Shown here piece after piece: positions 62,341 through 64,000 of a stretch of 64,000 nt of DNA. The notes below the pieces were generated by a model that had not been told where the DNA came from, made no database searches, and worked only from the letters and a program-made list of their open reading frames with translations. The position numbers and the translations under genes were made by a program. The number at the start of each line of letters is the position of its first letter. Position 1 is the first letter of the stretch. The DNA is from Oscillospiraceae bacterium. Its GTDB lineage: Bacteria; Bacillota; Clostridia; Oscillospirales; Acutalibacteraceae. The DNA is taken from assembly GCA_015065845.1 (NCBI GenBank), contig SVPQ01000005.1, positions 1-64,000 of the forward strand. The letters are read 5' to 3'.

Positions 62341-62371
62341 AGTCGGTAGTTTACACTACCGACTCTTTTTT
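62341..62371. terminator. Bidirectional terminator overlapping the 3' end of the AAA+ gene
   Basis: agtcggtagt ttac actaccgact, T-tracts on both strands; AAA+ stop codon (62351-62353) lies in the loop. Confidence 0.8.
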
Positions 62372-63856
62372 ATCTGAATTATATGGAATATAGTTTTTTC
62401 TTATTATTGAAATCTGCTTTTGAAGAAGTTTTTTGACTTCTCGTACATTACAACTTTTATAGAGTGAGTAGTATGCTTTTAATTCTCTTTGGTAATCAGA
62501 TGTGCCTTTTTCTGATTCCCCACTCATTATTTGGTCGAATATAGAGACGGTTCGTGTTAAATCGCCGGATGTATCAGTAACTTCTGCAAGTTTTGAGAGT
62601 GAAGACAAGTGGTAATCCTGTTCGGGAAGATGTTCTAATGTATATTGAATACAGGTTGAAAGGAAATAGTAAACTTTCATTTCTTCAGTGGGTGTTATTT
62701 CAGAAGTGAAATTCATTAAATAATTTACATAAGCGTGGGCTTCATCAGGAGTGGAAACATATTCGTAAAAATTCTCATCGCATTCTTCTGGTTGACTTTC
62801 AGTTTCAAAAGTTGTTATTTTATCAAGTCCTCTTAATTTACGCAATTTTGAATGGTAATATAATGGGGCGAGAACTTCATTTTTTACACTTAAAGTAACG
62901 CTTGAAATTGTTGTGTCTCGGTCAATTGCTTCAAATGTCGGATTTAAAGCGTTTTGCAAAATTGTGCCAACTGCTCTGGCACCTGTGTTAAGTGAAGTAG
63001 CCATTTCTGCAATTTTCTCACAGGCTTTTTCATCAATTTTTAAACTTACACCTGAAATTTTAAAAAGATGTGAGTATTTTTCTATATAAGAGCCTTTCGG
63101 GGATTGTAAGAGTAAACTGAAGTCTTCTTTTGTAAGGGGGGGGATGTAGTGTATAGCACCTATTCTGCCTAAAAGTTCTGCGTTGAATCCATAGTGTTTT
63201 ATATCGTCCAAAGTGGCGTGTTTTAAATATTCGGTTTCTTCTTCTTTTACAGTATTGTTGACAAAACCAATCGTGTTTCTGCCTTTCATTCGTGTCTTAA
63301 TCATATCTTCAAGTCCGTCAAAAGCGCCTGAGAATATAAAGAGCATTTTGCTGGTGTCTATAAATTCTGTTCTTCCGCTTCCTAAATCGCAGGAGAGACC
63401 TTTACCTTCAATTACTTGTAACAAGTTGAATTGTGGGTTTGAAATTTCACCATCCCTGAATCTCATTTTGCAGAATTCATCAATTATCACTATGCTGCTA
63501 CTGAATGTTTCTTTATTGGAACATGCCTGTTTTGCTAAACTGAAAAGTTGACTTAAGGTAGTCCCTTTGTATCCTTCCGGACTAATTGCACTGGAGTCAA
63601 TTGTAAATACATTGAGACCTGCGACATCGGCTAATGCTTTTATTAAGTGCGATTTACCGCAACCTGTTCTTGCTAATACCAACAAAGAATTAGTAGGGAG
63701 TGAACCAGGGTCAATACCAGCTTCAATAGCAGAAAGCTTTCTTAAATGAAGACTTATAAGTGAAGCTAATTTGTCTAATGTTTCTTTTTGAGTTTCAAGA
63801 GGAACTATTTTATTCCGCGCTTTTTTTATGAGTAAATCTTTTGGAAGGTACTTCAT
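62351..63856 (-). CDS. ClpX-like AAA+ ATPase lacking the zinc-binding domain, with C-terminal helical extension
   Basis: RTGCGKS, IVIIDEFCKM, TSKMLFIFSGAFDGLEDMI, GRNTIGF, GFNAELLGRI, NTGARAV align co-linearly with ClpX. Confidence 0.82.
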   Translation of the reverse strand: MKYLPKDLLIKKARNKIVPLETQKETLDKLASLISLHLRKLSAIEAGIDPGSLPTNSLLVLARTGCGKSHLIKALADVAGLNVFTIDSSAISPEGYKGTTLSQLFSLAKQACSNKETFSSSIVIIDEFCKMRFRDGEISNPQFNLLQVIEGKGLSCDLGSGRTEFIDTSKMLFIFSGAFDGLEDMIKTRMKGRNTIGFVNNTVKEEETEYLKHATLDDIKHYGFNAELLGRIGAIHYIPPLTKEDFSLLLQSPKGSYIEKYSHLFKISGVSLKIDEKACEKIAEMATSLNTGARAVGTILQNALNPTFEAIDRDTTISSVTLSVKNEVLAPLYYHSKLRKLRGLDKITTFETESQPEECDENFYEYVSTPDEAHAYVNYLMNFTSEITPTEEMKVYYFLSTCIQYTLEHLPEQDYHLSSLSKLAEVTDTSGDLTRTVSIFDQIMSGESEKGTSDYQRELKAYYSLYKSCNVREVKKLLQKQISIIRKNYIPYNSDKKESVV

Positions 63857-63888: not shown

Positions 63889-64000
63889 TTACATTTTTGG
63901 TGGCTGATAATTCTCTACAATTTCCCAGAAATATTTTTCTATAATTTTTGCAGAGTTTTTATCGCGCATTTCTAAAAATTGCTTGTAATAATTTCTTGTA
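63889..64000 (-). CDS. C-terminal end of an uncharacterised protein (runs off right edge)
   Basis: Open frame TRNYYKQFLEMRDKNSAKIIEKYFWEIVENYQPPKM-stop just upstream of the AAA+ gene. Confidence 0.5.
   Translation of the reverse strand, partial: TRNYYKQFLEMRDKNSAKIIEKYFWEIVENYQPPKM

Follow-up and report, generated by a model that had tools for sequence, protein, structure and literature searches.

The 501-aa protein encoded by a clpX-like gene at the far end of the analysed window joins a ClpX-like AAA+ unfoldase module to a C-terminal domain that is very probably a relative of the all-alpha domain (AAD) found in type IV coupling proteins (T4CPs), the pumps that export DNA in conjugative elements. 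The window, a 64,000-nucleotide stretch of DNA, comprises bases 1–64000 of a 110.5-kb contig in a 2.18-Mb clostridial assembly (82% complete) of a gut bacterium. Those of its close relatives that have public names are Oscillospiraceae/Clostridia MAGs, and the names of two refer to sheep rectum and sheep colon. The anatomy, conservation and linkage of the locus are well supported by sequence; from these we infer a hexamer, an AAD acting as receptor, hand-off to ClpP and a set of clients.

AAA+ proteases diversify by exchanging recognition domains. In this case the conjugation machinery appears to have been the source, and the anatomy suggests a machine that destroys proteins and has borrowed its targeting head. 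No precedent for a conjugation-type domain fused to a Clp unfoldase was found in the open-access literature searched, a limited library. If the AAD chooses the clients, the protein would offer a natural test of T4CP all-alpha domains as portable targeting modules, and of the working of an unfoldase that has neither RKH loop nor zinc domain. With its conserved adaptor-like gene and divergent partners, the locus is a compact, testable system.

The ClpX-like module and its lost recognition parts

The clpX-like gene (62351..63856, reverse strand, as are all features of the protein given below) has an ATG start preceded by an AAAGGAG ribosome-binding site, and contains no internal stops. Residues 23–323 (62888..63790) form the AAA+ module, supported by matches to PRK05342 (aa 25–323, E 1.1e-42) and to ClpX structures in the PDB, and by Foldseek. 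In the PDB profile search the top matches are all ClpX (E 3e-47, aa 23–324). The top Foldseek matches of the full-length AF2 model are also all ClpX; this model has low confidence (pLDDT 55) and was used solely for its agreement with ClpX.

The initial annotation had described an AAA+ region co-linear with ClpX, and alignment confirms every ATPase motif that it named: Walker A, ARTGCGKS (aa 62–69, 63650..63673); the pore-1 loop, GYKG, which is GYVG in ClpX (aa 95–98, 63563..63574); Walker B, VIIDEF (aa 123–128, 63473..63490); the Arg-finger helix, GFNAELLGRI (aa 223–232, 63161..63190); and sensor-2, GAR (aa 292–294, 62975..62983). The AAA+ hallmarks of ClpX (Walker A and B, an aromatic pore-1 loop, Arg finger and sensor-2) are therefore all present. 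Sensor-2, Walker B residues D126 and E127, and pore-1 residues G95, Y96 and G98 are invariant across six homologs. The pore-1 V of ClpX is replaced by K or R.

The protein is ClpX-like yet lies far under the ClpX equivalog thresholds, scoring 146 bits against PRK05342 (cut-off 359) and 121 bits against TIGR00382 (cut-off 370.75), well below half in each case. The match to the HslU equivalog TIGR00390 is weaker than that to ClpX and also below its threshold (50.7 bits, cut-off 362.45). Some 300 residues are co-linear with ClpX and share with it Walker A and B, GYxG, Arg finger, sensor-2 and an [IL]GF tripeptide, but the protein has no C4 zinc domain, carries a shorter stretch in place of the RKH loop, has gained the AAD-like C-terminal domain and falls in a separate clade. 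A normal ClpX of 434 aa, with a zinc finger (PF06689, E 1e-18), adjoins clpP on another contig of the same genome. The clpX-like protein would be expected from its motifs to work like ClpX but, as it lacks the zinc domain and the RKH loop and stays below the equivalog cut-offs, should not be filed as ClpX.

Both losses had been proposed in the initial annotation, and domain search and alignment agree with it. A Pfam search does not detect the N-terminal C4 zinc domain PF06689. The canonical RKH-loop stretch, PPQGGRKHPQQEF, gives way in all six homologs to a sequence six residues shorter (LGSGRTEF/LGQSRT.F), so that on alignment none of the six has an RKH loop; in the window copy LGSGRTEF occupies aa 158–165 (63362..63385). 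The RKH loop of ClpX participates in substrate recognition (PMC7112951), and its loss would fit the altered substrate choice that had been suggested for this protein.

The IGF tripeptide (aa 196–198, 63263..63271) is in place on alignment. All six homologs, among them a paralog of 30% identity, retain [IL]GF, with G197 and F198 invariant. The stretch after GF is approximately two residues shorter than in the ClpX of the same genome. Given this shortening, and the lower ClpP affinity that follows a change in IGF-loop length in E. coli (PMC7112951), ClpP docking is best described as plausible. The initial annotation had tied docking to conservation of IGF among homologs and to co-occurrence with clpP, and both hold: a ClpP-family match is present in all 22 genomes of the genus (in two, G009 and G015, the sole match is a weaker one), and the paralog is encoded near a second clpP. 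The other five of the six clpX-like copies have no adjacent clpP. Additional ClpP-family proteins (Pfam E ~1e-55) are encoded at G007:C18:43354-43875, G001:C18:8257-8799 and G021:C450:4776-5318, each besides a stronger ClpP match.

The C-terminal domain and the free-standing AAD-like gene

Approximately 150 residues following the AAA+ module are conserved in all six homologs, the domain itself spanning about aa 347–496 (62369..62821). The initial annotation was right to record an extra domain here; its description as ~160 unrelated residues does not stand, as the domain is homologous to the product of the gene upstream and, very probably, to T4CP AADs. The domain suggested the AAD of VirD4-type coupling proteins, and a relation to AADs was therefore tested. 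With a profile of 11 copies, 391 genomes from the class and 398 from the family were surveyed. Four matches outside the protein family itself were obtained at E <= 1e-3, all of them CD1115-type T4CPs and each located at the AAD, in the interval from Walker A to Walker B. Each has E 3–5e-4 per genome, and a single one could be chance across the survey; four of four on one domain of one family are hard to ascribe to chance. Comparison of the domain with T4CP AADs in hhalign gives a score of 33.1 over 103 columns (probability 65%), against 20.3 or less for 100 column-permuted controls and 13.8 for the reversed profile. The AF2 model of the domain, from ten sequences, is a confident one and has six helices (pLDDT 83, pTM 0.79). 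Foldseek places TrwB at PDB ranks 1–3 and at 9 of the first 21 ranks, with E 0.87 (not significant), probability 0.41 and TM 0.35–0.39. Searches of the domain by sequence only against the PDB gave nothing significant, and neither Pfam nor a viral fold library gave a match. It is the combination of profile surveys, hhalign scores relative to controls and the TrwB ranking of the AF2 model that makes the relation to T4CP AADs very likely.

The AAD of VirD4/CD1115-type T4CPs (NF045973, PF02534) aligns with the domain over about 100 columns (YIxT..DI.K.VN.LI ... Y..E.P...N...L..L). In T4CPs the AAD accompanies a RecA-like nucleotide-binding domain, whereas here it either follows a ClpX-type motor in one protein or is free-standing. 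The clpX-like protein has no match to the RecA/FtsK-type nucleotide-binding domain PF02534 and, with this domain missing, is by its sequence not a T4CP.

The free-standing form is encoded by a 159-aa gene on the strand of the clpX-like gene and 32 bases upstream of it (63889..64368 of the contig, L004:3889-4368; 63889..64000 within the window). It had been taken for a truncated gene, but instead runs past the window end. Its product matches the C-terminal domain with E 2e-7 in a direct search and with an hhalign probability of 99.7. The gene adjoins the clpX-like gene at all five orthologous loci; this conservation, together with the homology, bears out the suspected link between the two. It is the fast-evolving member of the locus, with 24–39% identity in most pairs and 74% in the closest.

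Distribution, proposed mechanism and alternatives

Within a single uncultured clostridial genus, the locus is carried by five to six of 22 genomes. Orthologs of the clpX-like gene are present in five (G000, G018, G001, G011 and G015), the four others being 60–82% identical to the window copy, and G001 carries in addition the paralog (30–32% identity). A pattern-based scan of ~85,000 species genomes returned only the six known copies and one short AAA+-only match. In the tree the six homologs form one clade (100/99), apart from all canonical ClpX sampled (98/99); the paralog branch is very long, so that clade depth is not interpretable. Between orthologs dN/dS is ~0.07–0.18, with many dS values saturated, and the clpX-like gene is under strong purifying selection.

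A recent duplication of host ClpX is rejected by the tree and dN/dS together. A phage origin is rejected as well, since the similarity to ClpX-like proteins of phages and viruses is confined to the AAA+ part, as are the PHROG matches; plasmid relatives are also limited to the AAA+ part. ClpX-like ATPases of phages and plasmids (Bacillus phage G gp258, Lak phages and IMG/VR loci L101–L103) share the AAA+ module at ~30% identity, but no AAD-like C-terminus was found in them. The ClpI unfoldases of Actinomycetota (PMC10149685) are likewise a lineage-restricted extra Clp unfoldase, with a ClpP-docking motif in some and not in others; they differ in being double-ring ClpC/ClpB-type enzymes, and the abstract on them describes no AAD fusion.

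In G001, the stretch L029:1-11000 of contig 7 carries the paralog, in the order clpP2, a single intervening 104-aa gene and, downstream, the clpX-like gene. The catalytic Ser, His and Asp of ClpP2 are intact, and the protein is closely similar to host ClpP throughout. Also encoded are an HAD_SAK_2 protein, a Mor-like regulator, an LHH nuclease, an IS1595-type transposase, a weak NikA-like mobilisation protein and DUF3825. With the nuclease, transposase, NikA-like protein and Mor-like regulator, these surroundings look like a mobile island.

The protein is best read as a ClpX-type unfoldase, probably feeding ClpP, in which client choice has passed from the zinc domain and RKH loop to the AAD; we give this reading an even chance. 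Six subunits would form an ATP-driven ring, and the AADs would bind a specific client, by analogy with the AADs of T4CPs, through which the cognate relaxosome and accessory proteins are recognised (Whitaker 2015, reviewed in PMC7434980). The free-standing AAD protein could be an adaptor, a hetero-oligomer partner or a decoy/competitor. The ring pore would then thread the AAD-bound client through, and the IGF loop would pass it on to ClpP, that of the host or, for the mobile paralog, the one encoded next to it. That the AAD has taken over client choice, and that the ring still serves ClpP, is the most economical reading. In HslU, a ClpX relative, the C-terminus lies on the protease side, and a C-terminal AAD is thus not obviously at the substrate entrance. 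A search of this genome (assembly 82% complete) found no T4CP, and a resident conjugation machine is for this reason an unlikely client.

The main alternative, which we consider unlikely, is a ClpP-independent remodeller, in which the ring would unfold or disassemble the AAD-bound complex without a protease and [IL]GF would be a structural remnant. ClpX and other Clp unfoldases are able to act without ClpP, and the shortened IGF loop, the change of the pore-1 V to K or R and the lack of an adjacent clpP in five of the six copies would suit a remodeller. LGF motifs are missing from some ClpI subtypes (PMC10149685). Retention of [IL]GF in six of six homologs down to 30% identity and the second clpP near the paralog speak against this reading. 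The missing zinc domain and RKH loop might alternatively mark an ordinary, decaying duplicate of host clpX, but the dN/dS of 0.07–0.18, the uninterrupted reading frame, the shared upstream gene and the clade separate from canonical ClpX sampled (100/99 and 98/99) make this extremely improbable.

Two further readings take the kinship with T4CPs as a guide to function. In one, the AAD would recognise relaxosome or coupling-protein parts and the unfoldase would dismantle or degrade them, in control of, or defence against, mobile elements. The relation to T4CPs, the NikA-like protein and IS1595-type transposase beside the paralog, and an AAD gene evolving much faster than its neighbours (24–39% in most pairs) would suit this, but PADLOC defence models give weak matches only, the main locus keeps one fixed gene order within one subclade and is not in a defence island, and the genome has yielded no T4CP; we regard it as improbable. 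A known defence system is rejected on the same weak PADLOC matches. The other reading, conjugation-derived AAD-guided proteolysis, holds that free-standing AADs are interchangeable adaptors that bring relaxosome- or DNA-bound proteins to ClpP, for control of transfer by host or mobile element; its probability is put equally low. A last alternative is that the likeness of the C-terminal domain to T4CP AADs is a convergence of helical sequences in an unrelated protein-binding domain. The single scores are indeed weak (E 3–5e-4 per genome; hhalign 65%; Foldseek E 0.87) and the domain has no Pfam match. The outside matches of the two surveys, four of four, are nonetheless T4CPs in the same domain and register, the permuted and reversed controls fall far lower, and an independent structural ranking puts TrwB first; convergence is accordingly held to have about one chance in ten.

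Divergent partners and the hairpin leader

The initial annotation had proposed looking for partners beyond position 64000. Candidates lie there: besides the AAD gene and a leader, two genes diverge from the clpX side, of 239 aa (L004:4713-5432, forward strand) and 353 aa (L004:5416-6477, forward strand), giving the order 353-aa gene, 239-aa gene, hairpin leader, AAD gene, clpX-like gene. The coupling-protein relation, the divergent partners and the leader were absent from the earlier reading, which was sound as an observation of sequence and holds in part as an interpretation, in the conservation of IGF, the co-occurrence of clpP and the upstream link. Domain searches assign neither divergent product to a known family. 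The 239-aa protein may be AAD-like too, with weaker support: its profile scores 30.2 against the AAD, the permuted maximum being 21.1. All five carriers have its gene, and the only other genome with it is G021, whose contig ends inside the leader. The clpX-like, 239-aa and 353-aa proteins are well conserved among carriers, and the clpX-like/AAD gene pair is strictly linked to the divergent neighbours and under purifying selection. In four non-carriers inspected, the flanking phosphoesterase gene has other neighbours; the locus is thus the mark of a subclade that has a gene order of its own.

By eye, the 353-aa protein contains an XRE-like stretch (NIYLDDLYAISRYSDKTPDNLLLG). The 353-aa genes of G018 and G021 (L025:10264-11322 and L105:1050-2108) are 96% identical with dS 0.11, against dS 0.79 in the neighbouring 239-aa gene, which suggests that the 353-aa gene has recombined.

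The divergent promoter region, with its hairpin leader, probably controls the module as a whole. Promoter-like sites face in both directions between the divergent genes (TTGACA-17-TATTAT and TTGACT-16-TATAGT); two were found where shuffling predicts 1.0, and their position and conservation outweigh the match itself. The leader (L004:4420-4560, reverse strand; contig 64420-64560, just past the window end) lies on the clpX side. Downstream of the promoter-like site on that side are one to three tandem mini-ORFs, typically M-T-N-I-N-L-N-K-H-L-L-V; the peptides include MTRTVKLLLLV, in G000, and MTYINLNKHLLV.... Most mini-ORFs are followed by TCTGCTGGYNNAASCCC (conserved motif TCTGCTGG) and a 7-bp hairpin. 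Covariation in the stem is strong, with 98.6% of cells paired and 13 two-sided changes; none of 500 shuffles reached this, and slid controls were low. Within the genus the exact leader motif occurs at this locus only, and its seven isolated matches in viral contigs are by estimate about chance for 17 fixed bases. No Rfam family matches the leader and it has no terminator T-run; it is possibly an attenuator or a protein-binding leader. An imperfect inverted repeat, TTGTCAAyATGAC ... TGTGAC(A/G), is conserved between the divergent genes in all six loci (L004:4600-4690) and is a possible operator.
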